Positions 175-39,436 of a stretch of DNA of 39,436 nucleotides are shown here, in pieces; position 1 is the first letter of the stretch, and each line of letters begins with the position of its first letter. Origin of the DNA: a virus; the IMG/VR virus record IMGVR_UViG_3300046817_000149, positions 1 to 39,436 of that record; one strand, written 5' to 3'. The position numbers were made by a program, and so were the translations under genes. The notes under the pieces are model-generated. The model saw only the letters and a program-made list of their open reading frames with translations. It was not told the DNA's origin and ran no database searches.

Positions 175-663
175 ATGGTGATAACGAAGACGAATCCAAT
201 CAAAGAGTTTAGAGAAAAGAACGAACTTACGCAGAACGAACTTGCCAACTCTTTAGGTATTACACGTCAAGTGATAACTAACCTAGAGCGTGGTCTTCTC
301 TCCCATCTCCCCACAGAACTCTCCCAATATACGAGCATCTCTCCAACCCAGTATACGGATTGGGTCACCACCCAAAGACACGAGAACTCTCCATATTTCC
401 ACACGCCTGAACTCAACCACTTTTACTCCTCCGAACTCCCACTCAACTACAGAACGAATAAGGACCGATGGCTGTCGTTCAAATACTTAGTCAGGCCTGA
501 TAGATCCCACAGAGGGTTCTGTCGGCTGCTCGTATATCAGCCTTCTCTACTAGCTTTATATGAGTCGAAGAATCAATGTAAACCTAGTTTGATAGCTGCC
601 CTCAGGCAGGTACTCCTTTCGGACCATGAGATATCCCAGACAGGAATCGTGATCCCCTCATGA
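175..663 (+). CDS. XRE-type helix-turn-helix protein
   Basis: A 162-aa protein. Residues about 8-45 form a Cro/C1-type HTH: the pattern FREKNELTQNELANSLGITR followed by a recognition-helix-like segment and LERG. The remaining ~115 residues are not recognised; they are rich in aromatic and basic residues and have no membrane segment. It is the first gene of the rightward arm and its stop overlaps the terS start (ATGA at 660). It lies directly behind three TATACTA sites and has no ribosome binding site, consistent with leaderless translation. It could be a repressor of its own promoter, a packaging-initiation protein that acts with TerS, or both. The HTH is clear; the role is inferred from position. 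Confidence 0.75.
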   Translation: MVITKTNPIKEFREKNELTQNELANSLGITRQVITNLERGLLSHLPTELSQYTSISPTQYTDWVTTQRHENSPYFHTPELNHFYSSELPLNYRTNKDRWLSFKYLVRPDRSHRGFCRLLVYQPSLLALYESKNQCKPSLIAALRQVLLSDHEISQTGIVIPS

Positions 664-1436
664 CAACTAAAGACTTGAAGCAAATAGAATCTGGACTAAT
701 CGCTCAAGGTGTGAATCCAACCTTGCTCTACAAACCTATAAACCCGACCAAACCAACCAGGGTTATCCCAGGGATTCTTAAAGAGCACCAAGCTTTCCTA
801 GTGGAAGCGATTATCATTCACTACGCGGAATATCACAACTATCCAACGCCTAAAGAGCTACACGAATACAGCAAGCGTTCTATCCCGTTAGCATTGTGTC
901 ACCGTGTTTGGCAAGTCCAACCGTTTCTGGAAGTCCTATATTCTCGGGGCTTGCCGGCTGTCGAAAGTCTCACAGTGCGAAGGGAGGACCCACATGTAGT
1001 AACCAGTATCGCCCTCAGTGAAGCATTAGAGCCTCGACAGTTACTCGCCCTGTCGGTGATGACAGATACCACGCAGCGTTTAACGCTAGAAACCCGTCTC
1101 AGGCGAGCTGGAATCCAGAAGTCCGAATGGCAGAACTGGATGAGGAATAAGAAGTTCCGGGCTAAGTTTGAAGCTATAGCGAGAGAAACTTTTATCCGAT
1201 CGCAGTCGATGATTGATTTGCAGCTAGCATCGGGTGCGCTAGAAGGCAAGCTCGATTTCATCAAATATTACAACGAAGTCTCCGGAAGGCACGACCCTAA
1301 CAAACAGGCAAAAATCAGTGTTCAACAAATCCTCAACGATGTGGTGGAGATTATCACTCGTAACGTAACGGACTCAGATACGCTCCAAAGAATCAGCGCA
1401 GAGCTGTCGGCTGCTGTCGTTAAGTACGAGCTATAA
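660..1436 (+). CDS. Terminase small subunit (phBC6A51-type homeodomain)
   Basis: A 258-aa protein. Residues ~115-180 carry the pattern typical of phBC6A51-family small terminases: a LEPRQLLALSVM-like first helix, an R-L-T-L-E-T-R-L-R-R-A-G-I turn, then W..WM.N..F. The family is known to recognise the packaging site and recruit the large subunit to the DNA. The N-terminal ~110 residues and the C-terminal helical tail, probably for oligomerisation, are less distinctive. Translation is coupled to the HTH gene by ATGA. TerL lies 2.4 kb downstream, separated by the receptor-binding genes, which is an unusual but not unique order. The assignment rests on the helix pattern and context. Confidence 0.72.
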   Translation: MTTKDLKQIESGLIAQGVNPTLLYKPINPTKPTRVIPGILKEHQAFLVEAIIIHYAEYHNYPTPKELHEYSKRSIPLALCHRVWQVQPFLEVLYSRGLPAVESLTVRREDPHVVTSIALSEALEPRQLLALSVMTDTTQRLTLETRLRRAGIQKSEWQNWMRNKKFRAKFEAIARETFIRSQSMIDLQLASGALEGKLDFIKYYNEVSGRHDPNKQAKISVQQILNDVVEIITRNVTDSDTLQRISAELSAAVVKYEL

Positions 1437-1448
1437 GTACTAGAGCTA

Positions 1449-1484
1449 TTTACAAGGTCAGGTCTGTCGGCTAGACTTCTATAT
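1449..1484 (+). promoter_or_regulatory. Promoter, probably leaderless, for the fibre/terL operon
   Basis: TTTACA at 1449-1454 and TAGACT at 1472-1477 are 17 bp apart. Exactly seven bases separate the -10 box from the ATG at 1485, the same geometry as at 167/175. No purine-rich ribosome binding site precedes 1485. The -35 box matches the consensus at five of six positions; the -10 box is weaker (four of six). One copy of the CTGTCG hexamer lies inside the spacer (1464-1469). It would allow receptor-binding genes to be expressed independently of the terminase small subunit. Confidence 0.5.
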
Positions 1485-2207
1485 ATGTCGCATCCGGAGA
1501 CAGAGAGGTATTACACCCCTAAACTTTCGCTGCTCGCTCCCAGTATTGATGACGAGATATCCTCCTGTCGTCCTAATTGGGAGCGGCTCGATGAGGCATA
1601 TGCTGGTGCGCTAGTCGTCTCTACTGGAACCGTGCCAGACGAGAGTATTCTTTTCGATGGGTGCCTGGTCGCAGAACGGAATACCGGGATCGTTTGGCGA
1701 GCGCAACGTAATGCCAGTGGCGTATTTGAGAAGCGGTACGTTAAGTATCCCTGGCGGGCGTCATTTACCCAGGACCAGACTTATCCAAGCGGTGGGACTG
1801 CGGTATGGGGTGCCTGGGGGTATCAAACGGTCGAAGGCGGCAGTATTAATGCCGGCAACGAATCTCTGGTAAATAACCGACTGGTCATTCCCGTGACTGG
1901 AATCTACCAGGGTGCGGACTGGATGAAATGGACCGACTCGGCTGTCGCCGGATCAAATACCGGGGTTCGGTCTCATACGCTCTGGGTAAATGATCTGGTC
2001 ACTCCTGTCGTTAATCCGGAGTTCACCTGGTACGAAGAGTCGGTAGTGCCAACTCAGGTAAATAACGTATGCACCACCTGTGTACGCATTAATCGGCTGT
2101 TTAATGCAGGGGATACGGTTTGTGCTGCGATTTGGCAAAACTCAACAGTCGCCTTGCCGAATACCCATAGGATCATGCTGGCACTAGTTCGCCCTGTCGG
2201 AGGATAG
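1485..2207 (+). CDS. Receptor-binding-type protein 1 (C1q-like head)
   Basis: A 240-aa protein, first of three tandem paralogues. The N-terminal ~90 residues carry the shared block TP-(K/R)-hydrophobic, NW..LD, G-C-L-V-A-E-R-x-(T/S)-G and F.K.Y..YPW, which resembles the attachment domain of actinophage minor tail and fibre proteins. The C-terminal ~130 residues look like a C1q/TNF-type trimeric jelly roll: LVIPVTGIYQ, a SHTLWVN strand, FNAGDTVCAAIWQ, and a final RIMLALVRP strand. The likely role is binding the host surface as a trimeric knob. The domain call is from strand pattern only. It starts at a probable leaderless ATG, and the next gene follows immediately after its stop. Confidence 0.65.
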   Translation: MSHPETERYYTPKLSLLAPSIDDEISSCRPNWERLDEAYAGALVVSTGTVPDESILFDGCLVAERNTGIVWRAQRNASGVFEKRYVKYPWRASFTQDQTYPSGGTAVWGAWGYQTVEGGSINAGNESLVNNRLVIPVTGIYQGADWMKWTDSAVAGSNTGVRSHTLWVNDLVTPVVNPEFTWYEESVVPTQVNNVCTTCVRINRLFNAGDTVCAAIWQNSTVALPNTHRIMLALVRPVGG

Positions 2208-2876
2208 ATGGCTATAGAATATACTCCGAGATTGAAGCTTCGGAAAGAATCTGACGATGAACTAATCGACCAGTTCGAGTACAATTGGCCGATTCTTGAT
2301 CTGTACGCAGATTCGTTGCAGGTCGCTGACGGAGTAACTCCGGCTGACTCTGATTTATACGAAGGTTGTCTCGTTGCAGAACGAACTAGCGGAAAACTCT
2401 GGATGGCTGTCGCAAATCCAGCCAGTCCTCCTCAATGGCTAAAGTCCTACATTTCATATCCGTGGGGTATTAGCGTAGAACGGGTAGTTAATCCGTTTAC
2501 TGTAGGTTTGACGGATCAAACGTTCAGCACAATCCTGCCGGATAACCAGGTCAATTCTAGTGCAGCGGATTTGGTGGGTGGGAAAGTAAAGATTCCAATC
2601 AATGGAATCTACTCGGTACACTATCGTCTGGGCATACCAGCACTAGGTGGCCGGACCCTCAACAGTTACCTACGAGTTAACGGCGCTGTTAATTATGGCA
2701 CGGAGATGATTGAGGGTACAAGCGGTATCGGTACCACACAGTGTATGTGGTCAGCGAATCAGTACTTCAGTTCGGGAGATTTGCTTACCTGGGATGCCAA
2801 TCCATTTGGCGGTACACTTAACGTTTCGTTGAATGTCAGGTTGTTTGTCACGATGATTTCTCCAGTGTGGGTGTGA
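2208..2876 (+). CDS. Receptor-binding-type protein 2 (C1q-like head)
   Basis: A 222-aa paralogue of the 240-aa protein before it. It shares the N-terminal block (EYTPRLKL, NWPILDLY, GCLVAERTSG, SYISYPWG) and the C-terminal jelly-roll strands (KIPINGIYSVHYRL, SYLRVNG, FSSGDLLTWDANP, ending LFVTMISPVWV). The N-terminal halves are better conserved than the heads, as expected if the heads face different receptors. A GGAGG lies directly before the ATG and the gene begins one base after the previous stop. The function is inferred from the fold pattern and the paralogue set. Confidence 0.65.
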   Translation: MAIEYTPRLKLRKESDDELIDQFEYNWPILDLYADSLQVADGVTPADSDLYEGCLVAERTSGKLWMAVANPASPPQWLKSYISYPWGISVERVVNPFTVGLTDQTFSTILPDNQVNSSAADLVGGKVKIPINGIYSVHYRLGIPALGGRTLNSYLRVNGAVNYGTEMIEGTSGIGTTQCMWSANQYFSSGDLLTWDANPFGGTLNVSLNVRLFVTMISPVWV

Positions 2877-2877
2877 T

Positions 2878-3558
2878 ATGGCTACACTAACTCCTCGTGT
2901 GAAGTATACGTTGGACGCTGCCGGACAAATCGGTGTGCAGCACGCTAATTGGGATCGAGCCGACTACGTATCTGGTCTTATTTATCGACTGTCGACTGAT
3001 GCACCTATTGATGAAAACATGCTATTCGACGGCGCTGTCGTAGTCGAAAAGGACACCGGAATCTCTATTCGGTATCTGTGGAATGGCTCGGCATTTGATA
3101 AGAAGTATATCAACTATCCGATGCAGTACCGGGCGCAGCTTACTGGAACATTTGGAAACGGTACAGCAAATGCATCGGGCTGGCCTACGACAGATGATGC
3201 GTGGAATGTTAACGCAAAAGTTGTGGACTGGAAAGATGCTACATCCGGTATTCGCATCAAGGTCAAAGCGCTGTATGATTTGAAGATTCATAACCATTGG
3301 CAAATACCAACGTATCCAACAACTAGTGCATCTGATCGAGATGTAGGTTTCTTTAAGAATAATGTTCTGCAAGCTAACTATAACTATAATAAGTTGACAA
3401 ATACCGGATGGAACTCTCCATCAACTATTGGTTCTTTGTCTGCTCGTTTGGTATTGCAGGTGAATGACCTGATTAATCTGTACTGGTACAATAACGGTGG
3501 AGGGTCTTTAGTACTTACCTCCGCTGTCGAACTTACGCTTATTAGGCCGGTGTGGTAA
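2878..3558 (+). CDS. Receptor-binding-type protein 3 (C1q-like head)
   Basis: A 226-aa protein, third paralogue. The N-terminal block is recognisable but more divergent (TLTPRVKY, NWDRADYV, FDGAVVVEKDTG, KKYINYPM). The C-terminal half again has the alternating strands and ends LVLQVNDLINLYWYNNGG then VELTLIRPVW. The ribosome binding site is weak and the gene starts one base after the preceding stop, so translation is probably coupled. The small fibre-like gene starts inside its stop codon (TAATG). All three heads ending in a strand of similar length suggests a common trimer architecture. Confidence 0.62.
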   Translation: MATLTPRVKYTLDAAGQIGVQHANWDRADYVSGLIYRLSTDAPIDENMLFDGAVVVEKDTGISIRYLWNGSAFDKKYINYPMQYRAQLTGTFGNGTANASGWPTTDDAWNVNAKVVDWKDATSGIRIKVKALYDLKIHNHWQIPTYPTTSASDRDVGFFKNNVLQANYNYNKLTNTGWNSPSTIGSLSARLVLQVNDLINLYWYNNGGGSLVLTSAVELTLIRPVW

Positions 3559-3863
3559 TGACTAGTCCAGCAAATGCCGGTCAGGTAAATACGACAGGTG
3601 GCTCTTCACCCGATAAGCGAGCTGTCGCAGACTTTCATCGCAACTCTGATCTGAATACTCGGGTGGAATCGCAGCATCATGATTTGGGTAACGGTTCAAA
3701 TCAAGCCTCGTTCGGTAACCATACTCATGATGGTCAGCGAGGTTTGCAGCTTCTAGAAGGTGTGACTTTTACAGGGTCACGTACGAATAATACAGCTGAT
3801 ATCTTGAACCAGATTATGAATGCTTTGGTTCCGCTAGGCGCGACCAATGCCACCAGTTCGTAG
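3558..3863 (+). CDS. Small fibre-like structural protein
   Basis: A 101-aa protein if translation starts at the ATG at 3558, which overlaps the upstream TAA (TAATG); a GTG six bases earlier is possible. It is hydrophilic and holds a GNHTHDGQRG motif. Such His-Thr-His/Gly motifs are common at the tips of phage tail fibres, where histidines coordinate metal in a trimer. The C-terminal part (LNQIMNALVPLGAT) could be a short coiled coil. It closes the receptor-binding cluster, so a fibre tip or adaptor is the best guess. No enzymatic motif is present. Confidence 0.6.
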   Translation: MTSPANAGQVNTTGGSSPDKRAVADFHRNSDLNTRVESQHHDLGNGSNQASFGNHTHDGQRGLQLLEGVTFTGSRTNNTADILNQIMNALVPLGATNATSS

Positions 3864-3885
3864 GCGGCGAGATTCCGGAGACGGT

Positions 3886-5430
3886 ATGTCCAAGAAGGAC
3901 ATTATCGGATTTCTGGCAAAGAGCTTGAGCCAACAGGCTAAAACCCCTAACATGCACGCTTACATTCCGCATTCAAAACAGAGTGCGTTTCACAAGAGCG
4001 ACGCAAAGGGACGACTCTACATTGGTGGAAACCGATCAGGCAAATCTGTCGGGGGTGTTGTCGAGGATTTGTGGTGGGCTACAGGACGCCATCCTTATCT
4101 TAAGACTCCCGAATTGCCCGTCAACGGACGAATTATCGGCGTTGACTTCATTAACGGGATTCAAGGTATCCTACTGCCAATCTTCAAACGATGGATTGTG
4201 CCTAGTGACCTTATCAACGGGTCCTGGGAAGACTCTTGGCACAATCTCGAAAGAACGCTCACATTAGCTAATGGTTCTGTGTTGGATTTCAAATCTAACG
4301 ACCAGGACTTGGAAAAGCACGCAGGTACCTCTCGAAACTTCATTCACTTCGATGAGGAACCTCCGCGTGCTTACTTCATTGAGAATTTGCTTCGTCTAGT
4401 TGACGTAGGCGGGTCCTGGTGGATTACCATGACTCCTGTCATGGGCATGACTTGGATTTATTCCCAGCTGTACGAGAAGTGGAAAAAGAGTTCAGTCGAT
4501 AATTTCGATGTCATTGAAGTCGATATGGCAGATAATCCGTACCTGTCGGAAGCTGAAAAGGCCGCGATTCTAGGATTCCTAAATGCTGATGAACGGTCGA
4601 AGCGAGAGCACGGCAATTTCATTCCAAGGGGTGGATTGGTATACCCCGATTTTGAGGAAACAGTTCATACAACAATTCGGAACTGGAAGCCACCTAAAGA
4701 TTGGCTCGTGTATCAGTCTACAGATCATGGGTACAATAATCCTGCCGCCCATTTGTGGCACGCCGTATCTCCTGACGGCTTGACTGTCGTCACGTTTAAT
4801 GAGATGTATGGTAGCGAGAGGATCGTAAAAGAATGGGCGTCTATGATCCTCCAATGGGAATCCGAGAACAGTATCAATATCTTTTTGCGGACTGGGGACC
4901 CGGCTATGAAACAGCGCCAAGCGGTTACCGGAACAAGTATAGCCTCAGAGTATGCGGATTGTGGGATCCATTTCAGTCTGGATTCTGTTCCAAGAGATGT
5001 TTCTGTGGGGGTCAACCGCGTTACGCAGTACCTACAAATCAATCCGAATACTAAGCAACCATTCTGGCAAATTGATGGAGAACGGTGCCCTAACCTGACC
5101 AGAGAAATGCTCCAGCTACAATGGGCATACTATGAGTCGGCTAAATTAGCAGACTCTAATAATAGGCAAGAGAAGATCAAAAAGAAGGATGACCACGCTC
5201 CGGATTCGGCCCGCTACTTCTTCACATTCCTCCCAGACCTGGGAGCGATGGCTGAGACGCAAATTGATCCGATTATGGAAGCACTTGGAAACGGAGGCAT
5301 ACAGGCCGGAACTATCTGGGAGTTTATTGCCAGAGCAAAAGGTCCAGAAAGTTCGTTCGGGCCGACGAGTACTGAATGGATGACTTCACAGGGATTCTCT
5401 GTGACTGATGATTGGGACGATGACTACTAA
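3886..5430 (+). CDS. terL: Terminase large subunit
   Basis: A 514-aa ATPase-nuclease that drives DNA into the prohead. The Walker A-like motif GGNRSGKS is at residues 47-54 and the Walker B/catalytic stretch FIHFDEEPP near 154-160. The C-terminal RNase H-like nuclease has candidate acidic residues in STDHGY, RTGDPA and DDHAPDSARYF. I chose the ATG at 3886 because GGAG lies seven bases before it. An in-frame ATG at 3847 would add 13 residues but lacks a ribosome binding site and overlaps the upstream gene. The length fits the family. The stop (TAATG) overlaps the next start. Confidence 0.93.
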   Translation: MSKKDIIGFLAKSLSQQAKTPNMHAYIPHSKQSAFHKSDAKGRLYIGGNRSGKSVGGVVEDLWWATGRHPYLKTPELPVNGRIIGVDFINGIQGILLPIFKRWIVPSDLINGSWEDSWHNLERTLTLANGSVLDFKSNDQDLEKHAGTSRNFIHFDEEPPRAYFIENLLRLVDVGGSWWITMTPVMGMTWIYSQLYEKWKKSSVDNFDVIEVDMADNPYLSEAEKAAILGFLNADERSKREHGNFIPRGGLVYPDFEETVHTTIRNWKPPKDWLVYQSTDHGYNNPAAHLWHAVSPDGLTVVTFNEMYGSERIVKEWASMILQWESENSINIFLRTGDPAMKQRQAVTGTSIASEYADCGIHFSLDSVPRDVSVGVNRVTQYLQINPNTKQPFWQIDGERCPNLTREMLQLQWAYYESAKLADSNNRQEKIKKKDDHAPDSARYFFTFLPDLGAMAETQIDPIMEALGNGGIQAGTIWEFIARAKGPESSFGPTSTEWMTSQGFSVTDDWDDDY

Positions 5431-5870
5431 TGGGTGATACGTTCACGTTTGTCCGGGCAGGTGAAGCGGCGAGTCCTGGGTCTTGTTTGATTTGTGGATT
5501 CGATCGCAGAGATTTCATCGACTTTCGTCGAGATATGGAATACTACGGCGCTGTACTCGTTTGCATTTCTTGCATCAACGAACTGGGCACCGTTCCTGAG
5601 TTGGACTTCGTGTCTCGAATTGATTACGAAGAGCAGGTATCACTGAACCAAAGCCAGTCTGAAACTATCAGGTCGTACGAAGGACTACGAAAGAAGTTAG
5701 AAGATGGATTGGTACGTGTTGCCAACGATTTTACTGTCGATTTTGATTCCACTGGTATTAATCGAAGGCCTGCGCTACAAGGCAAACCGGGGTTTGTTAA
5801 GCTTGTTGAACCAGCAAAACAAAGAGTTCCAGAGTACCTTGACCCATTTGGCGAACCTCCTGTCGACTAA
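5430..5870 (+). CDS. CxxC-motif protein between terminase and portal
   Basis: A 146-aa protein of unknown function. Two pairs of cysteines near the N-terminus (CLICG at ~19-23 and CISC at ~48-51) could form a zinc knuckle. The middle (about residues 60-95) is charged and probably helical. The last ~55 codons overlap the start of a second reading frame encoding a membrane protein. It starts in the terL stop codon (TAATG). A role in packaging or in portal assembly is suggested only by position. Confidence 0.72.
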   Translation: MGDTFTFVRAGEAASPGSCLICGFDRRDFIDFRRDMEYYGAVLVCISCINELGTVPELDFVSRIDYEEQVSLNQSQSETIRSYEGLRKKLEDGLVRVANDFTVDFDSTGINRRPALQGKPGFVKLVEPAKQRVPEYLDPFGEPPVD

Positions 5871-6069
5871 AGACCCTATGGCATTTCAGGCCGTCTCTGT
5901 TGTAACTCCTGGCGTTCCGAGCTATGATACAGAATACGATCCTAGCGATGAGGCTGAAATTGAAAGATTAAGGGGACGGGGACATAGTGACGGCGCCATA
6001 CTCGATGAATGGAGCGGCGACGAAGGACGCGAATTCGCCGCAATCCGGAGCGAACTCTACGGCGATTAG
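5704..6069 (+). CDS. Small membrane protein nested between Cys protein and portal
   Basis: A 121-aa product read in another frame from its neighbours. Residues ~5-22 form one clear transmembrane segment (VLPTILLSILIPLVLIEG), followed by a helical amphipathic stretch and an acidic tail with GRGHSDGAILDEW. It overlaps the upstream gene by 167 nt and the portal gene by 83 nt. An AGAAG directly precedes the ATG at 5704. The hydrophobic run is too regular to be a chance shadow, and the region 5871-5986 would otherwise be empty. A start at 5878 (MAFQAV) would remove the membrane segment but has no ribosome binding site. Function unknown. Confidence 0.6.
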   Translation: MDWYVLPTILLSILIPLVLIEGLRYKANRGLLSLLNQQNKEFQSTLTHLANLLSTKDPMAFQAVSVVTPGVPSYDTEYDPSDEAEIERLRGRGHSDGAILDEWSGDEGREFAAIRSELYGD

Positions 6070-8206
6070 TCAGTCCGACCCCAGTATTTTACCGTCTGGA
6101 AAAAAGAAGCGGACAGTAGACAAGCTGTCCGAAAAGTCCAAGAAGGAAATTGTATCTTGGGTCCAGAGCGAATATACGAAGATGAAGAATTATCGCCAGA
6201 GGATTCGTCGTCAGTGGGACGTGAATCTGGAAATGTATGGTGGCAACCAGTTCATTACAAATCTTTCCAAGGATGGCAAGACTACCGGCCGCATTGGTAC
6301 ACCGCCTTCTGCGCGACACCGCGAGCGGTCTGTTACCAACCGTATTCGGCCGATGATCCGGACGGAAATTACCAAGCTTACCTCGCAAAAGCCAAGCGTC
6401 ACTGTTATTCCTGCTTCGGGGGAAGATGACGATTTGTTTGCTGCGCAATCAGCGGAAGCGGTTTGGGAATTTCTGTTCGAGCATCTGAATTTCCAGTGGA
6501 CTGCGGAACGTACTGCTTTCTGGACTAGTATTACCGGAAACGGTTTCGTTAAGACCTGGTGGGATTCTCAGAAGAAAGATACCCTGTTCAAGAATATCCT
6601 GGGTATGCCGACAGTCGGAAATATTCAAATCAAGCCAGTCACACCGTATAATATCTTCATGCCTGATCTGTTGTGCGAGGATTTGGAAGATCAGACCCAC
6701 ATCTTTGAGGCATACACGCGGCCTGTCGAATGGGCACGTCAGTACTGGAAGATGGATTTTGAACCTAATGCAGTAGCTAAGACCGAGATTTTTGAGGCTA
6801 GTTACTTCCAAAGTACGGGAGATAATACATCTTCTCCGGATTCTGTGCTGATTATTGAAGCATGGGTTAAACCGGGCGGCTGTAAGATGTTTGAAGACGG
6901 CGCTCTGGTCACCATTTGTGGTGATAAGCTCGTCAACTTCGATGAAGGTATGTGGTATTCCCATGAGGAGTACCCATACGCGCAGACGAAGCACATTCCG
7001 ACCGGTAAAGCTTACGGTGTAAGTATTCTGGAGGATATTAACTCTCTCCAGAGGGAATACAACCGTACCCGGTCACAAGTTATCGAATCGAAAAACCGAA
7101 TGGCGCGGCCCCAGCTGATGGCCCCAATTGGTAGTTTCGATATCGCAAAGTACACCTCTGAGCCAGGCTTAATTATTCCGTACCGTCCTGGGCTCGGAAA
7201 ACCTGAGCCTCTGCAAATCCAACCGATTCCGAACTATGTGCTACAAGAAATTGAGCGCATCATTTCGGATATGGAGGATATCAGTGGACAACATCAGGTA
7301 TCGCGTGGCATGGCCCCGGGACAGGGTGTTGTTGCGGCGACTGCTATTGCCTTCTTGCAGGAAAAGGATGACGCGATTTTATCGCAGACCATATCCTCAG
7401 AAGAGCAGATGGTTGCGAAAATTGCTCGCCACTCACTCACACTTGTAGTAGATTACTGGGACCTCCCACGAATCATCCGGGTTACTGGAACCGACAGGGC
7501 ATTTGACTCGTTCCAGCTAAAGGGCTCGGATATTGCTAACAGCCTGGACGTTCGCGTTGAGCCTGGCTCCGCGTTGCCACAATCTAAAGCGGCCCGACAG
7601 GCTTTTCTTATGGACCTCGCCCGTATGGGTGCAATTTCTCCCCAGCAGATGTTGGATATGATGGAAATTGGTGGGGTCCAAACTCTCGTAGACCGGATGC
7701 GTATTGATATGCGCGCGGCTCAGCGGGAGAATTTGAAGATGAAGCAACTTACCGAGGATATGATCCTGCAATTCAACCAGGGTATGATGAAGAAGGCTTT
7801 GCAGGGTGCTCCTGGTACGGTAGACCCTCAGCGCGGTATTCCGACTGTTGACGCAGCGAATCTTTCGACGTATCCTCCAGTAGTAAAGGTGAACAAGTGG
7901 GATAACCACGCGGTTCATGTTACTACTCACAACAATTTCCGTAAGACCCAGGCGTTTGAATTGCTCTCGCCAATGGTCCAGGATCAGTTTGATCGGCATA
8001 TTACGATCCACGAATCGTATCAGATGATGAGTCAGCAGAATCCTATGTTTGCTATGGCTCAGCAGGGTATGCCGCAAGAAGCAATGGGAATGACGCCAGA
8101 AATGCAAACCGGCCCGCAGGACCCAAGTATGGGTGGGCCACCGCCACAAGACCCAAGTATGGGTGGCGGCGCACCGCCTAGTATGCCGGGAGGAGGTGGA
8201 ATGTAA
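5987..8206 (+). CDS. Portal protein (P22-like)
   Basis: A 739-aa protein forming the dodecameric DNA gateway at one capsid vertex. Recognisable features are the helical block with INSLQREYNRTRSQVIESKN (about residues 347-366), MARPQLMAPIG, and a long helical C-terminal domain. The final ~50 residues are Gln/Met/Pro/Gly-rich with two QDPSMGG repeats. The GTG at 5987 is preceded by AAGGGGACGGGG; an ATG at 6005 is the alternative. The length fits podovirus portals. Context between TerL and scaffold/coat supports the call. Confidence 0.85.
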   Translation: MTAPYSMNGAATKDANSPQSGANSTAISQSDPSILPSGKKKRTVDKLSEKSKKEIVSWVQSEYTKMKNYRQRIRRQWDVNLEMYGGNQFITNLSKDGKTTGRIGTPPSARHRERSVTNRIRPMIRTEITKLTSQKPSVTVIPASGEDDDLFAAQSAEAVWEFLFEHLNFQWTAERTAFWTSITGNGFVKTWWDSQKKDTLFKNILGMPTVGNIQIKPVTPYNIFMPDLLCEDLEDQTHIFEAYTRPVEWARQYWKMDFEPNAVAKTEIFEASYFQSTGDNTSSPDSVLIIEAWVKPGGCKMFEDGALVTICGDKLVNFDEGMWYSHEEYPYAQTKHIPTGKAYGVSILEDINSLQREYNRTRSQVIESKNRMARPQLMAPIGSFDIAKYTSEPGLIIPYRPGLGKPEPLQIQPIPNYVLQEIERIISDMEDISGQHQVSRGMAPGQGVVAATAIAFLQEKDDAILSQTISSEEQMVAKIARHSLTLVVDYWDLPRIIRVTGTDRAFDSFQLKGSDIANSLDVRVEPGSALPQSKAARQAFLMDLARMGAISPQQMLDMMEIGGVQTLVDRMRIDMRAAQRENLKMKQLTEDMILQFNQGMMKKALQGAPGTVDPQRGIPTVDAANLSTYPPVVKVNKWDNHAVHVTTHNNFRKTQAFELLSPMVQDQFDRHITIHESYQMMSQQNPMFAMAQQGMPQEAMGMTPEMQTGPQDPSMGGPPPQDPSMGGGAPPSMPGGGGM
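8120..8166 (+). repeat. Short tandem repeat in the portal C-terminus
   Basis: The 17-bp unit GACCCAAGTATGGGTGG is found at 8120-8136 and again at 8150-8166, a 30-bp period that keeps frame and encodes the repeated QDPSMGG. This looks like a recent slippage duplication in a disordered tail. Confidence 0.75.
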
Positions 8207-8460
8207 TGCCGAATGTCACGATGTATACGACTCAGGGCATGGAAACGACTACCGATAACCGCTGGAATCCAAATACAGGCGGCCTGTCGACTGGTAACGC
8301 AAATGATATCGCTGCTATGAGCGATATCGCTTCGCTAGATACTCTACTGGCGACCCTTGACGGCGTATATTGGACTAGCAGGCGACTTAACCAGGAAAGT
8401 ATCTGGGATAAGTTGTTCTATCTGCGTACCAGTCGTCGAGGTACCGCTTCACTGACTTAG
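8206..8460 (+). CDS. Small protein between portal and scaffold, unknown
   Basis: An 84-aa hydrophilic protein with no recognised domain. Its ATG overlaps the portal stop (TAATG) and GGAGGAGG lies just upstream inside the portal tail. Residues ~33-68 look helical (DIAAMSDIASLDTLLATLDG). The position between portal and scaffold suggests a virion or prohead component, but nothing in the sequence proves it. Confidence 0.65.
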   Translation: MPNVTMYTTQGMETTTDNRWNPNTGGLSTGNANDIAAMSDIASLDTLLATLDGVYWTSRRLNQESIWDKLFYLRTSRRGTASLT

Positions 8461-8512
8461 CCAATTTCAACCCCAGGGCCGGAAGGTACAGGGTATCCAG
8501 TAAGGAATTCCT

Positions 8513-9385
8513 TTGAGTGCACCAGATGGTGGATTTGACACTGGTAACAGTGCCGAACCTGTCGGTTCAACAAGTACGGACACTTCTGCCGAAAGCCCGG
8601 TAACAAACCAACAGGCAGATAATCCCGCTTGGAATCCTGTCCTAGAGGGAATGCCTGAGGTATTTGCAAATCGGGCACGTCCGCATCTTCGGCAGTGGGA
8701 CGACAACTATCGTCAGAGGGAAACCGAATTACGGGAGCTAAAGGAAAAGTACAGCCCTTACGAGCCGTACTTAACGGTCGATCCTGAGGCTATCCAGTAT
8801 GGTTTGGGCCTGGTAGGCCGACTCCAACAAGACCCACTGGCAGTGTATAACGCTCTCAATGAGCACGTACGACAGCTGGGTTTACTTAAAGACGACCAAT
8901 CTGCAAACGGAAATGTTCCCGATCCAAATGCTGTTAATTTGGAAGAGGAAGATCCCCGATATGCAGAACTGGCAAGACGCCAGAAGGAAATCGACGATCG
9001 CCAACAAGCATTTGAGCAGCAGCTTCAGGAACAGGCTTACAACAAACAAGTTGAGACATACGAATCAGAAATCAACACGGCAGTCGGACAGCTTAAACAG
9101 CAGTTCGGAAATGCGGTTGATGAGCACGATCTTCTGCAACGTATGTTGGTCCAGGTCCAAAGGGGCGAAGAACTCAGTGCTCAGCGGGCGTTTGAAGATC
9201 AGAAGGCGTTTTTCCAGAGAATGTATGCCAACGTATCGCAGCAGCGATCTGCTCCGAATGTTCTAGCTCCTGGTGGTCAGCCTGCGGCAAATACTCCGCA
9301 GAAAGACCCGAAGGATATGAACGAGTCGGAGCGAAAGGCATACTTCAAGCAACTACTGGATGCTCATAATGCCGCCGGAGGCTAG
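8513..9385 (+). CDS. Capsid scaffolding protein
   Basis: A 290-aa acidic protein that begins with TTG; GGAATTCC six bases before it gives the ribosome binding site, and no ATG is available in this frame near the start. The first ~45 residues are Ser/Thr/Pro-rich and disordered. The centre is helical and highly charged (RRQKEIDDRQQAFEQQLQEQ is a coiled coil), and the C-terminal ~35 residues end in a basic/helical segment (MNESERKAYFKQLLDAH), as expected for a scaffold that binds coat protein. It sits immediately before the major capsid gene. The call rests on composition, length and position. Confidence 0.75.
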   Translation: MSAPDGGFDTGNSAEPVGSTSTDTSAESPVTNQQADNPAWNPVLEGMPEVFANRARPHLRQWDDNYRQRETELRELKEKYSPYEPYLTVDPEAIQYGLGLVGRLQQDPLAVYNALNEHVRQLGLLKDDQSANGNVPDPNAVNLEEEDPRYAELARRQKEIDDRQQAFEQQLQEQAYNKQVETYESEINTAVGQLKQQFGNAVDEHDLLQRMLVQVQRGEELSAQRAFEDQKAFFQRMYANVSQQRSAPNVLAPGGQPAANTPQKDPKDMNESERKAYFKQLLDAHNAAGG

Positions 9386-9387
9386 AA

Positions 9388-10614
9388 ATGCCCACGAGTC
9401 TTTCGACTCTGACCGCAGTAACGAAGGAAGTTTACGAAGGTAAGCTTCGAGCACAGTTCAACGAGGAAGTCGTTCTGCTCAAGCGTATTGAGCGGAATGG
9501 GAACGGCTCGACGATTACCACCACTGTCGGTGGAAAGTACGTCACTTTCCCGATCAAGGTTTACCGGAACAATGGTCTCGGTTTCCGACGCGAAGGTGAA
9601 AATCTTCCGACCGCTGGTAACCAGGGAACCGCTCCGGTTCAGGTCCGTCTCAAGTACGGATATGCTTCTGTTCAGCTTACCGGTCAGGCAATTCGGCTGA
9701 TCGACAAGGATTTCCAGGCGTTCATTTCTGCGCTCGATCTGGAAATGCAGGGCGTCAAGAATGACGTCGCCAAGGATTTGAACCGTCAGATGTACGGAGA
9801 CGGCACCGGTGCGATTGGTGCTACCAGTACTGTTGGTGCGGCTACTACCGCGACGATTACCCGAGGCATTCAGAATTTCCAGGTTCAGGAAATCGTGGAT
9901 GTTTATGTTCCGGCTACTCTGGCTGCGGACGGTGCGCCAAAGGCTACCGGGGTTCAGATTACCGCAGTCGACACTGCGGCAAATACGATCACCTATGCCC
10001 CGTCTGTTACTTTGGCGGCGGGTGACGTGTTTGTTCGTACCGGTTCAGCCAACCGTGAAATTACCGGCCTGGCTGCCATCGTGAATAACTCCGGTACTTT
10101 GTACGGAGTCGATCCCAACACCTATCCGATTTGGAAGAGTGTTGTGGATTCAAACGCAGGCACGAACCGCGCCCTGTCAGAGTCTGCTATGATCCGGAAT
10201 ACCCATGCGGTCCGGACAAATGGTGGCAAGACTTCTCTCCTGCTTTCCTCTCTGGGCGTTCAGCGCGCGTACTGGAACCTGTTGGTTCAGGCGCGGCGTT
10301 TCTCGAACGTCAAGGAATTTGCAGGTGGATATTCCGGTCTGACATTCACCACCGATCAGGGCGAAGTCCCAATGGTGGCGGATATCGACGCCCCGTACAA
10401 CACCGTCTACGGGCTTGATGAGAGCGAAATTCGTCTCTACCGCGATGCGGATTGGGACTGGATGGATATGGACGGAAGTATGTGGGATCGGGTTCCGGGC
10501 TCTGTTCCGGGAACAATCAAGGACGCCTACGCGGCTGAAATGTTCTCGTACCTCGAACTCGGTACCGGTCGACGAAATGCCCACTGGGTGATGAAGGATA
10601 TCACCGAGTCCTAA
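9388..10614 (+). CDS. Major capsid protein (HK97 fold)
   Basis: A 408-aa coat protein. The N-arm (TAVTKEVYEGKLRAQFNEEV) and the block FQAFISALDLEMQGVKNDV..DLNRQMYGDGTG match the spine-helix region of HK97-fold coat proteins of short-tailed phages. Residues ~140-210 hold a Thr/Ala-rich insertion (ATSTVGAATTATI and the following beta segment), probably the I-domain or a surface loop. A GGAGG lies eight bases before the ATG. The codon choice is more GC-ending than in the following gene, as for a highly expressed gene. A strong hairpin follows the stop. Confidence 0.9.
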   Translation: MPTSLSTLTAVTKEVYEGKLRAQFNEEVVLLKRIERNGNGSTITTTVGGKYVTFPIKVYRNNGLGFRREGENLPTAGNQGTAPVQVRLKYGYASVQLTGQAIRLIDKDFQAFISALDLEMQGVKNDVAKDLNRQMYGDGTGAIGATSTVGAATTATITRGIQNFQVQEIVDVYVPATLAADGAPKATGVQITAVDTAANTITYAPSVTLAAGDVFVRTGSANREITGLAAIVNNSGTLYGVDPNTYPIWKSVVDSNAGTNRALSESAMIRNTHAVRTNGGKTSLLLSSLGVQRAYWNLLVQARRFSNVKEFAGGYSGLTFTTDQGEVPMVADIDAPYNTVYGLDESEIRLYRDADWDWMDMDGSMWDRVPGSVPGTIKDAYAAEMFSYLELGTGRRNAHWVMKDITES

Positions 10615-10630
10615 TCTTTCCCCGGGAAAT

Positions 10631-10666: not shown

Positions 10667-10692
10667 AAGGGCATATCGTCATAGGAGAGAAC

Positions 10693-12153: not shown

Positions 12154-12169
12154 CTTAACGGGGTGGGGG

Positions 12170-12825: not shown

Positions 12826-12826
12826 G

Positions 12827-27509: not shown

Positions 27510-29250
27510 AGCTAATTTCCTTACCCTCAGCCTGGCTGAATCTAAGCTGCTCGTCACGTTGCATGATGAACGGTGCGTTTGGTTTCCTAGCCATACGTAC
27601 CTTATCCAGAGATAGTACAATGTAATCCTGGATAGGCTCCATGACAAAGATCATATCAGCTTCGGACGTGATGAATACCGAACCGTGAATATCTGTCTGG
27701 TCCATCAGTACCCTACGTCCGACACCTGGTTTCTTCGTATGGTGCAGCATTATCATTGCGCATCCATACTTACGTCGTATCCTAGTTAAGAATGCCTGGG
27801 CCGTACGTACTGCTTCGTCATCGTTAGGGGATTTCTTTAGCATCTTTGACAGAGAATCTATGATACATACTGACGGTCGGATTCTGTTAACCTCGAACTC
27901 GAATGCCTTCTGACCATACTGGTCATCGAGTGGCATCATATCTGCATCATGGTAGATTTGGAAGCGGTCATCCATTTCCTCGACAGGCATATCCATCTGC
28001 TCGATGAAGTACCTTAGCTGCGGAATGTCCATCTCCATTGAGAAGAAAAGTACCTTGCCTTTACGTTCCTGTTCGTTAGGCCACTGAAAGAAACCTAGTC
28101 CTAACGATATAGCCTCGGCAATTCTAAGTGCTAGCTGTGTCTTTCCCACACCTGGCGGTCCGGCAAGGAGTCCATACCCTGTCGTGGAAAGGAGACCAGT
28201 AAAGAACCACTGGATTTGAATCTTGTAGTTGAGGACTTCCTCGATGGTATAGACCGTTTGAGGTGCGACTTCCGTTTCAGCATCTTCGATACCTTTGAAT
28301 TTGATTTCGACATCTTGCCCGATCCGGGCTCGCTCGATGCAATCGGAGTAGAGACGTATCCGATCAGTCTCGGAACGCCGAGTATATTTCTTCCACTCAT
28401 CATCCTTGTGACGTACAAGTACGTACGATTCGAGGTCGGTAAGTCCAGACTCGACACAGGAATGTGCAAGACGAACGAGCGAACGACTCCTGTCGTTTGT
28501 CTCCGTCGCATCCATAAAGAAGACGTGTTGGAAATCCTCAGACATGGTATGAGTGGCGAGGATTTTTTCGATCGTGGGACTTGGACTATTAGATAGTTCG
28601 CGTCGTAAAGCGTCGAATACAACTCTCTGTATTTCACGTTTTGATGGTTCAGGTAGGCCAGCAAATGCTGTAACTCGGTCACTGTTATCCTCCACGAAAA
28701 CTTCGACAGCGGATCGGGACTTCTTGCCATAGCCCCAGTTCATTGTGCCAGGAACTCTGAACAATCCTCCGGCATCCCACCCGGAATTATCTCCGTCAGT
28801 TTTACTGGTGAAGATTCTACGCTGAGCTTCGAGCTTAGGAATGTCAGTTACGAAGCTATCCAGAACCCAGTAAACATGCTTATGGAATTCGTCAGAGGAT
28901 TGTATAATAATGGAAGGTTCAGGCAAACCTCGGTCGGTAAAGCCTGCCATTTCTTGGGGAGCATTACCGTCGAAGTCGACAGGAATCACATGCGATCCCC
29001 GGACATATTCCTTGGTGGCTTTGCCATCCCGGATGGCCTCATGTACGTATAGGTCGGGAGAGTAGTAAACTTCCTTCTGCTGATTCACCGAAGCTTGTAC
29101 GAAGGTGATTACCATCTCAAGCTGTTCGGGATATACGTACAGGGCGTTGTTGAACTTCATATCTTTAGAGCGGGTTGCCAGCCGTATGACGCCTTCTTCT
29201 TGCTTAAAGATATGCTCGAAGAAGTTACGTTGTAGTTCCCCTGTTTCCAC
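27412..29250 (-). CDS. Primase-helicase (prim-pol domain + RecA-like ATPase)
   Basis: A 612-aa protein. Residues ~60-190 resemble an archaeo-eukaryotic primase core: HVIPVDFDG (Asp92, Asp94), HKHVYWVLD (His125) and GGLFRVPGTMNWGYGKK. Residues ~340-600 form a RecA-like ATPase with GPPGVGKT at 364-371 and Walker B CIIDSLSKM (Asp465), like replicative plasmid/phage helicases. It would unwind and prime DNA for the adjacent polymerase. It starts with GTG, with GAGG upstream, and overlaps the previous gene by 26 nt. The primase assignment is by motif pattern; the ATPase is certain. Confidence 0.85.
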   Translation of the reverse strand: METGELQRNFFEHIFKQEEGVIRLATRSKDMKFNNALYVYPEQLEMVITFVQASVNQQKEVYYSPDLYVHEAIRDGKATKEYVRGSHVIPVDFDGNAPQEMAGFTDRGLPEPSIIIQSSDEFHKHVYWVLDSFVTDIPKLEAQRRIFTSKTDGDNSGWDAGGLFRVPGTMNWGYGKKSRSAVEVFVEDNSDRVTAFAGLPEPSKREIQRVVFDALRRELSNSPSPTIEKILATHTMSEDFQHVFFMDATETNDRSRSLVRLAHSCVESGLTDLESYVLVRHKDDEWKKYTRRSETDRIRLYSDCIERARIGQDVEIKFKGIEDAETEVAPQTVYTIEEVLNYKIQIQWFFTGLLSTTGYGLLAGPPGVGKTQLALRIAEAISLGLGFFQWPNEQERKGKVLFFSMEMDIPQLRYFIEQMDMPVEEMDDRFQIYHDADMMPLDDQYGQKAFEFEVNRIRPSVCIIDSLSKMLKKSPNDDEAVRTAQAFLTRIRRKYGCAMIMLHHTKKPGVGRRVLMDQTDIHGSVFITSEADMIFVMEPIQDYIVLSLDKVRMARKPNAPFIMQRDEQLRFSQAEGKEISYDRGVSIIDGANVAFVTAIGGSTSGTSNTQGF

Positions 29251-32577: not shown

Positions 32578-33450
32578 CTACTCACCTTCGATTGTGTTTG
32601 GATTTGTGGACCCGATTGGGACTTCGGGGTCATGATCTGGTACTAGTTCCGGTGGAGGAGCATCTTTGACACTACCTCCCATCCATCCTTTGATTTTTGC
32701 AATCAACTCCTCGTAACTGACTTGTGGTTGTAGACCTCCGATTCTTGTTTTAGCATCAATCCTGCGAGTTGGGTGAACTTGGTAGATTCGACGGTAAGTA
32801 TTTTCGTCGATCTCGTTTCCCGACAGGTTGGTGATTAGATGGAGAGGTTGCTTAACCTTCTGCCCTAGCTTTGGCAGAAAGTTTGGCTTGGTAACCTCGA
32901 CATTCCTGTCGTCCTTATCCAAGCGGGTGTGTCCCACCAGGATAACATTCAAATCCGGAACAGCCAACAGTTCGGCAAGCGATTTTCGATATCGGTTAGT
33001 GACCGCATTGTAGTCCGGTTGGGTCGGCATATCCGGGTCTTTCGCTTTGTCCATGCTTGCTCGGTACTTAACGATCTCGTCGAGCGCCATATCAGCGGCA
33101 CTGGTGGCTTCGTCCCAAACGATCGTCTTATACTTTGCAAACTCGTCCTCCTTTCTACGGAGAGCTTCCGACAGGGCGTCTACTTGATTGAGGTTGATAT
33201 ACCTCATTCTAGTAACGCGCTTCTTCAAATCTGGATGATTCTGTAGCGACACCCACCCTTCCGCGGTATCTAGATATAGGATTTGATAGTAGTCGTTGGT
33301 GATTTCTTGCGCCATATTGACAGCGCCAACGGTCTTACCAACCCCCGACAGGCCATAGATAAGAGCTTTGAAACTGGGATGCGCGTCTGACAAATCTTCC
33401 ATCGACAGGCGCAACCTGTCGAGATATGTCAGCTGTTCTGTACTAGTCAT
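32578..33450 (-). CDS. Sak4-like RecA-family ATPase
   Basis: A 290-aa ATPase. Walker A is GLSGVGKT at 33-40 and Walker B is TIVWDEATS with Asp113/Glu114; a VILVGHTRL strand follows. Sak4 proteins are phage single-strand annealing/recombination ATPases, usually next to an SSB-like protein, as here. The C-terminal segment has a Pro/acid-rich tail. It starts with an ATG overlapping the previous stop (ATGA) and uses the helical N-terminal lead LTYLDRLRLSMEDL. Confidence 0.83.
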   Translation of the reverse strand: MTSTEQLTYLDRLRLSMEDLSDAHPSFKALIYGLSGVGKTVGAVNMAQEITNDYYQILYLDTAEGWVSLQNHPDLKKRVTRMRYINLNQVDALSEALRRKEDEFAKYKTIVWDEATSAADMALDEIVKYRASMDKAKDPDMPTQPDYNAVTNRYRKSLAELLAVPDLNVILVGHTRLDKDDRNVEVTKPNFLPKLGQKVKQPLHLITNLSGNEIDENTYRRIYQVHPTRRIDAKTRIGGLQPQVSYEELIAKIKGWMGGSVKDAPPPELVPDHDPEVPIGSTNPNTIEGE

Positions 33451-34279: not shown

Positions 34280-34751
34280 TGGGACGAACTCTCCCTCTCA
34301 TTTCAGCTACTTTAACAGTTTTGTTGTACCACAGTCTACCAGTAGCAGACGGAATACCTTGTTTGTTCAACCTTCGAGCGATGCTTTTGTAGGATATTCC
34401 ATCATCTCGGTATGCAAGTATTAACTGTAGCGTATCTTCCGGGATCGGAATGGTTCTTTTGTTGCGCTGCTGTTCTGACTTAGTGGCCCACCTGACATTA
34501 CCAGGCTCGTAGTTACCGTCCACGTCTATCCTGTCGATAGTGTGGTTCAAACTCGGGCGTGGGCCTATATAGTCATAGAAGGCAAAATAGTTGTCTATCC
34601 ATTCAGGGTATATGGTAATACCTCTGCCGCCATAACTAAAATAGTCTGGATAGTTTGGGTTCAAGCATCGTTGCTTCATCATCGCCCAGCACCGATATCC
34701 GGGATTTGATGCGTGCCAACGGTCTCGATACTCTTTGCTGTTTGTAGTCAT
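34245..34751 (-). CDS. HNH endonuclease with recombinase-type HTH
   Basis: A 168-aa protein. Residues ~38-98 match a phage HNH nuclease: SYGGRGITIYPEW, GPRPSLNHTIDRIDVDGNY and PGNVRWATKSEQQRNKR. Residues ~108-145 form a separate HTH resembling the serine-recombinase type (GISYKSIARRLNKQGIPSAT then TGRLW). A nuclease with a borrowed DNA-binding module suggests a free-standing homing endonuclease. It overlaps the Cas4-like gene before it by ATGA. Confidence 0.8.
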   Translation of the reverse strand: MTTNSKEYRDRWHASNPGYRCWAMMKQRCLNPNYPDYFSYGGRGITIYPEWIDNYFAFYDYIGPRPSLNHTIDRIDVDGNYEPGNVRWATKSEQQRNKRTIPIPEDTLQLILAYRDDGISYKSIARRLNKQGIPSATGRLWYNKTVKVAEMRGRVRPSDTVPGNSRSV

Positions 34752-35608
34752 TTCTTTGTCCGACGTTCGTAGAAAGATTCTGTGATGATGGGAGAATCGA
34801 AACCACCGTTGAGGTCACTGTTGCAGATATCTTTGAAGGGACATAGCATACAGGCCATCGTATTTCGGACGGCGATACTCTCGGCTTCTTCGATACTCAG
34901 CTGGTGGATTCCAGCGACCTTTTTAGCGACGAGGAACTGTTCATGCATAGTTCGCGTCACTCTGTCGGCCGTAATCGGTACCGGTGTCCGTATGTATCGC
35001 TCGAACGGATTGGTTTTGTTGTCTTTGGTATTTCGGTACCTGAGTTGATCGTATTCCAACACGTTCGCCTTGATACCAAGTTCCATGAGCACGGCGAAGT
35101 ACTTGGGCAGCTGAGGATTCATGTCGATCTTATCGACCGTGTAGAAATCGTTGGTGAACTTCCAGTCACGCACGACAATACCCTTGCCGGGAATTTCCAG
35201 CACCAGGTCTACCTTGATTGGCATGATGTAATCGCCAGTGACGTTTACCTCGTGGAGAATCTCAGTCTCGATCACACGAAATTCGTCATCACGATACCGC
35301 TCGAAGTAGTTGAGCAGCAGCCAGTAGAGTTCATCCCAAAGCTTTTCGGGATCATACACGTCATACTGGTTTGCGACGATTGGCAAATGGTCCATCGCGG
35401 CCATACCTGCATCATCATGCGACAGGCCCTCTTTGCGCATGGAGTAGTAGCAGGAGAGAACTTCGTGCCCTACGTTTCCTCGGGCAAGCGGATCAGTAGT
35501 TCTGATCGGCTGAATACGCTGCACATACGAATAGTAGTGCCTACGCGGACACATGAGATAAGACTCGACCTCAGAATGGGACGCTTTGTCGATGTCGCTA
35601 GTGAGCAT
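34748..35608 (-). CDS. Cas4/RecB-like nuclease
   Basis: A 286-aa protein of the PD-(D/E)XK type. The acidic/Lys core is MPIKVDLVLEIP and VVRDWKFTN. An iron-sulfur cluster is suggested by Cys20 near the N-terminus (MCPRRHYYSY) and by CMLCPFKDIC near the C-terminus. Such enzymes process DNA ends in recombination and fit with the SSB-like and Sak4-like genes downstream. It is the first gene behind the strong promoter at 35641-35669; GGGGGT lies before the ATG. Confidence 0.83.
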   Translation of the reverse strand: MLTSDIDKASHSEVESYLMCPRRHYYSYVQRIQPIRTTDPLARGNVGHEVLSCYYSMRKEGLSHDDAGMAAMDHLPIVANQYDVYDPEKLWDELYWLLLNYFERYRDDEFRVIETEILHEVNVTGDYIMPIKVDLVLEIPGKGIVVRDWKFTNDFYTVDKIDMNPQLPKYFAVLMELGIKANVLEYDQLRYRNTKDNKTNPFERYIRTPVPITADRVTRTMHEQFLVAKKVAGIHQLSIEEAESIAVRNTMACMLCPFKDICNSDLNGGFDSPIITESFYERRTKK

Positions 35609-37928: not shown

Positions 37929-38008
37929 CTAACGGCTCCGAGGAACTTCTCATAGGTTGACGTAGGTGTACGTCGTCTCTGTCTCAGCCAACTGCATCAG
38001 AGTGCCTG

Positions 38009-38206: not shown

Positions 38207-38221
38207 TATGTAATCCTCGAC

Positions 38222-38296
38222 TTAAATTGACTCGACTTTGGTATGCACAGGCTGCCCAAACCCGAGGATGAAGAAATACTTCACGATCTTTGGCAT
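38222..38296 (-). CDS. 24-aa microprotein
   Basis: ATG at 38296 with GGAG seven bases upstream (CTAGGAGTTCTAAATG) opens a 24-codon frame beginning MPKIVKYFFILGFGQPVHTK. It is basic and hydrophobic in the middle. The next gene starts 16 bases after its stop. Such very small genes are common between early phage genes; function unknown. Confidence 0.5.
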   Translation of the reverse strand: MPKIVKYFFILGFGQPVHTKVESI

Positions 38297-38343
38297 TTAG
38301 AACTCCTAGGATTTGTGGGGTCAGTACTATTGTGTCGAGTGTA

Positions 38344-39436
38344 TTACAGGTTCTGAATGACATCCGCCAGTTCTTGGAACGTGAATTCGTTCTGGAAAGT
38401 CTCGACCATGTTCCTCTTTCGTTCCACAATCTGTGCCATCTTGGAATCAGCAGAGCCCAGCATCTTGAGACGAAGGATATGGACTTCCGTCTCTTCGGTT
38501 TGTCCCGTGCGGTCAGTGCGCTTATACGCCTGCTCGTTACCTGCCGCACTCCAATCTTCGTCCAAGATCACAGTCTGAGTACAGGCCGTGAGATTCAAAC
38601 CCTCAGATGCCAGCTTGTAGTGGGCCAAAACCACATCCCACTTATCAACGACAGTATCGTCGTGACGGTCGAAATTCTTCTTGATTTCCGCGCGAACCTT
38701 ATCCGGCGTAGGTCCGGCAAACAGTACCGCTTTGACTCCTTCCGCAAGTAAACGCTTTTCCATTTCGATCAGCGGTTCCAAGAAGTTTGAGAAGACGACA
38801 GTCTTTTGCTCCTCCTCAAGAAACTCATGCACCAATTCGACACCCCTGTCGATCTTGGCAGATTCCTGGACGCCCGCACCCAAATGCACACGAGTTTCAA
38901 AGCCAGTGATCGGGTCGATTTCCTTGATGTAGATACCGCCCGGCCACACCGTCGCCTGACGCAAACGGGTCAACAGAGCCATCGCATTGAATACGTTCTG
39001 CTTTCCCGTCTCTTCCATTTCCAGCAGTGAATGCCTCTTGAGCTTACGCAGAACTTCGCGCTGCTTCATATAGAAGCTGGGAAGCGGGTCGATTTCGTGA
39101 ATGATCTTACGCTGCGGCGGGAGCTTGATACCGGCATCATCACGTGACCGGCCGAAGTAGAATCCACGAATCTTCTTGACCAATTCCTGATGGCCGTTCT
39201 TACGCCAAACGCGATTCCCTTCCCAGTCCGTCGTCGTAAACTGCCACTCGTAGTCATACATCTCACCGAAGATTTCGGGATGGCACAGGTGAACGAGCGG
39301 GTACAAATCCATCGGATTATTCCGCAACGGAGTACCGGTCATAAACATAACGTTCTCGACAGAACGCTTGGCCGGAGAATCTTCACCGTGCTCTCCGATA
39401 CAGTGCGCCGTAGTACGAGTCCAGATACGCACGCGG
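38344..39436 (-). CDS. SNF2-family helicase, C-terminal part (cut by window edge)
   Basis: About 364 codons are visible; the gene continues beyond the right edge, so the Walker A half is missing. Seen are VMFMTGTPLRNNPMDLYPL (motif III), KTVVFSNFLEPLIEMEKRL (motif IV), HYKLASEGLNLTACTQTVIL (motif V) and AYKRTDRTGQTEETEVH (motif VI). This is the SNF2/RapA-type C-terminal RecA lobe. It is the most upstream visible gene of the leftward arm and probably acts in replication or recombination. Confidence 0.86.
   Translation of the reverse strand, partial: RVRIWTRTTAHCIGEHGEDSPAKRSVENVMFMTGTPLRNNPMDLYPLVHLCHPEIFGEMYDYEWQFTTTDWEGNRVWRKNGHQELVKKIRGFYFGRSRDDAGIKLPPQRKIIHEIDPLPSFYMKQREVLRKLKRHSLLEMEETGKQNVFNAMALLTRLRQATVWPGGIYIKEIDPITGFETRVHLGAGVQESAKIDRGVELVHEFLEEEQKTVVFSNFLEPLIEMEKRLLAEGVKAVLFAGPTPDKVRAEIKKNFDRHDDTVVDKWDVVLAHYKLASEGLNLTACTQTVILDEDWSAAGNEQAYKRTDRTGQTEETEVHILRLKMLGSADSKMAQIVERKRNMVETFQNEFTFQELADVIQNL

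Follow-up and report, generated by a model that had tools for sequence, protein, structure and literature searches.

The closest described systems are primases of the archaeo-eukaryotic primase (AEP) superfamily and their short template sites. According to PMC8718748, both ORF904, from the archaeal plasmid pRN1, and the primase of phage NrS-1 recognize 5'-GTG-3' in the template, and the best sites of the NrS-1 enzyme are GTGA and GTGG, with synthesis starting just upstream. In ORF904, GTG is bound by a helix bundle, and the primer's first dinucleotide is reported to form opposite the two bases directly 5' of GTG (PMC8076596 and PMC8718748). A GTG motif in ssiA has been proposed as the initiation site of RepB' of plasmid RSF1010 (PMC4434180), and GP55, a different phage AEP enzyme, uses CCAAC (PMC12205980). 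Here we describe a viral genome in which the hexamer CTGTCG is strongly over-represented. The window, that is, the whole stretch analyzed, comprises 39,436 nucleotides (IMG/VR record IMGVR_UViG_3300046817_000149, positions 1 to 39,436) and encodes a primase-helicase. Judged from sequence, structural models and analogy, CTGTCG is probably where the phage's own RepB'-like AEP primase starts primers, the sites being kept genome-wide by selection and the primase being the reader that we infer.

A program count over all 39,436 bases found 125 copies of CTGTCG, 71 on the positive and 54 on the negative strand, dispersed from position 472 to the last copy at 39357-39362. It is the commonest of all hexamers in the window and ranks first at Markov orders 1, 2 and 3, where 20, 23.0 and 41.1 copies, respectively, were expected. 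Dinucleotide shuffles of the window contained 20.5 ± 4.3 copies, and none of 100 reached 125. The roughly sixfold excess claimed by an earlier, sequence-only reading was therefore borne out, although its hand count of about 115 copies was too low; the third-order model, which it had named as one that might account for the count, fell far short of doing so. That reading had also described the excess as independent of reading frame, and enrichment was indeed found in each of the six frame/strand classes (about 2.5- to 7-fold). The 43 predicted genes hold 118 of the 125 sites, as opposed to 25.1 ± 5.2 after synonymous-codon shuffling (maximum of 43 in 300 shuffles). The base 5' of the word is preferentially C (68 of 125), and C is disfavored on the 3' side (13 of 125). 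The median gap between copies is 424 bp on the positive strand, 523 bp on the negative strand and 238 bp with both strands pooled, the largest pooled gap being 1201 bp. We regard CTGTCG as a real, strongly selected word.

The proposed reader is encoded at 27412..29250 on the negative strand. This 612-residue protein matches PHROG primase and DnaB families and Pfam AAA_25 (6e-24), and alignments, models and folds divide it into an AEP Prim_Pol domain, a helix bundle and a RecA-type helicase. The catalytic Prim_Pol domain occupies residues 1-190 (28681..29250, negative strand) and carries the motifs VDFDG, QSS...H.YW and R.P.T.N, which fit an AEP primase and include its catalytic acidic residues (DxD) and histidine. 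Its model superimposes on the PrimPol of cyanophage S-2L (6zp9; Z 18.6, 176 residues, 2.8 Å) and on RSF1010 RepB' (3h20/3h25; VIA-align Z 17.6-17.8, the upper value to 3h25, with 183 residues at 3.1 Å), the next-best folds reaching only about Z 11. RepB' was also the top Foldseek match of the primase model (E 1.4e-9). The putative helix bundle (residues 203-310; 28321..28644, negative strand) appears as helices in both AlphaFold models, and the pRN1 primase 9aam matches residues 1-310 at a low Z of 8.6. The RecA-type helicase domain (residues 335-590; 27481..28248, negative strand) matched RSF1010 RepA (1nlf/1olo) in Foldseek with template modeling scores of 0.72-0.74 of the target. AlphaFold confidence (predicted local distance difference test) was 82 for the whole protein and 90.6 for the first 310 residues. 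In 43 primase sequences, H124 and W127 are invariant and D93 nearly so, VDFDG and ...H.YW are conserved, and no zinc cysteine motif was seen in the primase-helicase alignment. Pfam RepB_primase/Prim-Pol scores exceeded the 24.3-bit cut-off in the related enzymes of phages Almagne (32.1), Muddy (43.3) and Kale (26.3); those of Jasmine, Shocker and ctEqG8 fell below it, and the window protein was unlisted. On these models, the window enzyme is an AEP, RepB'-like primase with a helix bundle fused to a RepA-type helicase.

The enzyme shares with RSF1010 RepB'/RepA the predicted folds of both halves, an AEP catalytic domain with a helix bundle, the lack of a zinc motif and a putative GTG-type initiation motif. 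However, RSF1010 has separate proteins and one hairpin single-strand initiation (ssi) site per strand with GTG, whereas the window has one fused protein and more than 100 short sites without a long conserved flank, with GTC in place of GTG. NrSPol of phage NrS-1 is likewise a phage AEP enzyme with a helix bundle and helicase, without a zinc finger, and with the site 5'-GTGA/GTGG-3', but it also replicates the genome, and the window phage, in contrast, encodes a PolA; the passages of PMC8718748 consulted do not describe genome-wide enrichment of the NrSPol site. ORF904 resembles the proposed reader in the binding of GTG by the helix bundle and the placing of the first dinucleotide on the two bases 5' of it (PMC8076596), and differs in belonging to an archaeal plasmid, containing zinc and having a superfamily 3 helicase. 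Gene 4 of T7, also a podovirus, fuses a primase to a RecA-type helicase and works with a family A polymerase, but its primase is of the DnaG/TOPRIM type with a zinc domain, not AEP. A T7-type GTC primase was considered for the window and rejected, given the AEP fold, the alignment in which no zinc motif was seen and the scant enrichment in T7 itself. The sequence-only reading had, as speculation, pointed to the GTC core as compatible with primer initiation; this was the wrong basis, since such a core would suit a T7-type enzyme.

The window virus is a soil-type phage, a Jasminevirus-like podovirus whose terminase, portal, capsid and PolA-primase order is that of the Jasmine-group phages (46%, 43% and 38% identity for terminase, capsid and PolA, respectively). 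Identities of about 30-46% in terminase, capsid and DNA polymerase, together with the same gene order, connect it to Arthrobacter phage Jasmine and its relatives, Microbacterium phage Shocker, Cellulosimicrobium phage DS1 and the uncultured ctEqG8. The family was defined by the major capsid protein (9388..10614, positive strand; PHROG 14242; 42-44% identity to Jasmine, Shocker and DS1). About 150 relatives were gathered in two viral-contig searches; the family analysis covered most of the length of each of 54 phages, and about 70 other phages were compared in total.

Across the family, CTGT is constant and the 3' part of the word varies. Close relatives of the window virus (76-97% capsid identity) carry CTGTCG, as the sequence-only reading had suggested checking, and so does DS1 (116 copies, 28 expected). 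CTGTGG takes its place in Jasmine, Adat and Casserole (101, 90 and 95 copies, about 15 expected; 16 for Jasmine), and CTGTAG in ctEqG8 (98 copies, 28 expected). The best CTGTNG word reached a z of at least 5 in 50 of the 54 phages, which span 39-64% guanine plus cytosine. Usually one N is enriched per phage; the dominant letter is most often A (32 phages), followed by C (18) and G (4), and is never T. In 31 of the 54, a CTGTNG word is the top hexamer at order 3, where chance offers 4 of 2080 words. Longer forms occur, including CTGTAGCG (91 times in G040), CTGTCGCC (45 times in G055) and CTGTGGCG (24 times in G043), and G054 has CTGTAA 104 times. Individual sites are conserved above the background of all hexamers between the window and its close relatives L012 (56 of 65, or 86%, versus 53%), L003 (23 of 42, or 55%, versus 32%) and L002 (20 of 28, or 71%, versus 58%). 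Position 289 of the primase, in the helix bundle, is Tyr in 13 of 13 phages with the C word and Phe in 25 of 27 with the A word and 3 of 3 with the G word, a pattern that is confounded with ancestry and serves only as a lead. One contig, G047 (L358-L359), has both CTGTCG (31 copies) and CTGTAG (45 copies) enriched and interspersed along its length, and is possibly in the course of switching from one word to the other.

The word belongs to the phage and not to the host: Laroye, Galaxy and Bennie, which infect the same Arthrobacter ATCC 21022 as Jasmine but are unrelated to it, lack the CTGTGG excess. Related words were found in phages outside the family that have other capsids and a related primase-helicase. 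GTGTGG is leading or near-leading in Serbin (62 observed, 14 expected), Almagne (74, 16), Lebethron (90, 23), Muddy (71, 23), SteamedHams (79, 24) and Kale (65, 23). CTGTGG is found in ctuI7215 and Strzyga, GTGTGC in Molivia and SorJuana, and, more weakly, CTGTGC in Nonagon. One of these four words was among the order-3 top three in all 15 nonfamily phages that encode such a primase-helicase, whose hosts belong to eight genera, as opposed to 2 of 85 background viral contigs (P = 5e-16, which overstates the strength of the association, the 85 contigs being a convenience sample and the test set including close relatives). SorJuana, whose top word is GTGTGC, was counted in the test set and not as a control because it has an AEP primase relative. 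In the Microbacterium phages Golden and Kale (L402 and L403), CTGTGG is strongly depleted (3 and 5 copies, 35 and 30 expected) and GTGTGG enriched, which suggests avoidance of the competing start dinucleotide.

The strand preference of the word follows genome orientation, not gene direction. In regions of leftward genes, the word prefers the late-gene strand, both in the Jasminevirus-like family (727 to 547) and in other AEP phages (210 to 123). Such behavior would be expected if the sites lay on a lagging-strand template, but not from codon usage or from signals for transcription. In the window, positions 1-25500 have 51 copies on the positive and 29 on the negative strand. A preference in the rightward arm had been claimed from a count of 49 to 21; the bias is genuine but concentrated in the left 15 kb (472..14724), with 32 positive to 10 negative copies within 1-15000 (binomial P = 0.0009). 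The leftward arm, 25501-39436, shows no mirror bias (20 positive, 25 negative), as the same reading had noted. Of 57 phages, 88% had per-strand spacing of the word that was more even than random (mean z, -1.05), whereas matched words of comparable frequency tend to cluster (mean z, +0.66 in 702 tests; P = 3e-20 for the difference). Eight GTGTGG phages (L391, L392, L393, L396, L397, L399, L401 and L403) have a whole-genome excess on the positive strand of about 1.6 to 2.4 to 1, which suggests mainly one fork direction.

By analogy with the characterized enzymes, the words are naturally read as a start dinucleotide followed by a recognition sequence: GT/GTGG, CT/GTGG, CT/GTCG and CT/GTAG. A T stands directly 5' of GT in every strong case, so the primer would begin with A. 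In the mechanism that we propose, the helicase would travel on the lagging-strand template while the helix bundle recognizes GTCG in single-stranded form; the catalytic domain would pair the first two nucleotides with the CT directly 5' of GTCG, so that primers would start with 5'-AG. Selection would hold about one site per 300 bp. The ancestral recognition core was probably GTG, as in RepB', ORF904 and the NrS-1 primase, and the third base would have drifted to C in the window and to A or G elsewhere in the family, each genome being rewritten to match. The exact start nucleotide, the supply of priming sites as the selected function and the shift from GTG to GTC or GTA are likewise inferred.

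Several observations weigh against a primase as the reader of the word. The phage sets hold close relatives (for example, three Pseudomonas and two Amigo-group phages among the 15 test phages), and P values consequently overstate independence. PolA always accompanies the primase, as do Sak4 and a Cas4-like exonuclease in most cases, so association alone cannot single the primase out, and gene trees of five genes each need the same 3 middle-letter changes and do not discriminate among them. The leftward arm of the window lacks strand bias (20 to 25), and the window's own sites are barely more even than random (z, -0.75). The T7 genome is little or not enriched for its own primase sites; strong primase words are thus not general. 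Finally, replacing any one base of GTG is reported to cost the NrS-1 primase its activity (PMC8718748); for GTC and GTA, specificity would therefore have had to change substantially.

Further genes of the window were annotated. The family A DNA polymerase (25701..27647, negative strand) adjoins the primase as in the named relatives; its open reading frame overlaps the primase gene, and its true start is uncertain. PHROG and Pfam scans placed a Sak4-like AAA recombinase of the same replication module at 32578..33450 and a PD-(D/E)XK exonuclease, Cas4/RecB-like, at 34748..35608, both on the negative strand, and a helix-turn-helix protein at 175-663. Between the exonuclease and Sak4 genes lies a predicted protein (34245-34751, negative strand) with a fragmentary, 40-residue match to Pfam Recombinase (PF07508), and an SNF2-type helicase is found further along from PolA and the primase-helicase. 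Further words are in excess in the window: GATTTG/CAAATC (81 copies, 26 expected) and GCAAAT (60, 23), both enriched in the closest relatives too, and the palindrome GATATC (37, 14). Shocker (L135) has a second motif, CTGTAAAG(G), in 45 copies, which is also present in G016, G022 and G035. In Shocker, 19 copies lie outside annotated genes (noncoding DNA is 5.5% of the genome), with a cluster near the genome ends; this motif looks regulatory and distinct from CTGTCG.

The best-surviving rival, though an improbable one, is a Chi-like recombination signal read by the phage exonuclease or recombinase (the PDDEXK exonuclease, Sak4 or the SNF2 helicase) or by a Holliday-junction resolvase. Recombination genes accompany the primase in most word-bearing phages, and the strand polarity and wide spread of the word would suit a Chi-type signal. 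However, what the word does match is the site, with its start dinucleotide, determined in vitro for the AEP primase superfamily, and the host recombination system is no explanation, given that the word is missing from other phages of one host. To our knowledge, no known Chi resembles [C/G]TGTNG.

An origin in the host or in mutation, through codon usage, host composition or the copying of a common host word, is already largely refuted and very unlikely. Two scans of genome contigs for the host of the window virus, by prophage or Lsr2, found nothing. A scan of viral contigs for a triple-CCTGTCG pattern returned mostly contigs with locally clustered copies, apparently repeat-rich coding sequence, and was not useful for finding hosts. 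Against a host origin stand the synonymous shuffling (25 versus 118 copies), the three phages of Jasmine's host without the word, the recurrence of GTGTGG in phages of both Proteobacteria and Actinobacteria, and the conservation of sites above background.

We give as little credence to transcriptional control through dispersed sites for a repressor (stoperators) or a nucleoid protein. The stoperators of cluster A mycobacteriophages are likewise short, dispersed and oriented, the window encodes the helix-turn-helix protein, Jasmine has Lsr2-like genes, and the separate, partly intergenic motif of Shocker looks regulatory. Yet the window sites are not preferentially intergenic (118 of 125 genic), their orientation follows the genome and is independent of transcription, and no such DNA-binding gene is evidently common to all word-bearing phages; stoperators are also repressor-bound, longer and fewer. 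A modification or restriction-related motif would suit a short fixed word on both strands but is the least credible option, as no methyltransferase was identified among the window genes scanned with PHROGs and Pfam, restriction pressure would deplete a word, and even spacing would be unexpected. Among the four readings originally offered, the primase site is now the best supported, because the word is specific to the module, varies by one letter and matches the superfamily 5'-GTG-3' site and start dinucleotide; the stoperator is disfavored, and the Chi-like and modification readings are without positive evidence.

The enzyme class and its GTG site were known already. What appears to be new is the genome-wide supply of sites, a specificity readable from the genome and a third base that switches; in the open-licence literature, searches turned up no previous description of such words. 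We think it reasonably likely that the genomes of many phages with AEP primase-helicases are shaped throughout by the supply of primase sites, that k-mer counts therefore disclose the recognition word, and that related primases have changed their third base, from GTG to GTC or GTA, in step with about a hundred genomic sites. Primase specificity usually comes from slow biochemistry on few enzymes; if this proposal is true, it would be predictable from the genome for a large group of phages, including well-known isolates such as Muddy, and the strand on which the word lies would indicate fork direction. It would also pose an evolutionary puzzle, in that the recognition letter changes although about a hundred sites in the genome must change too.

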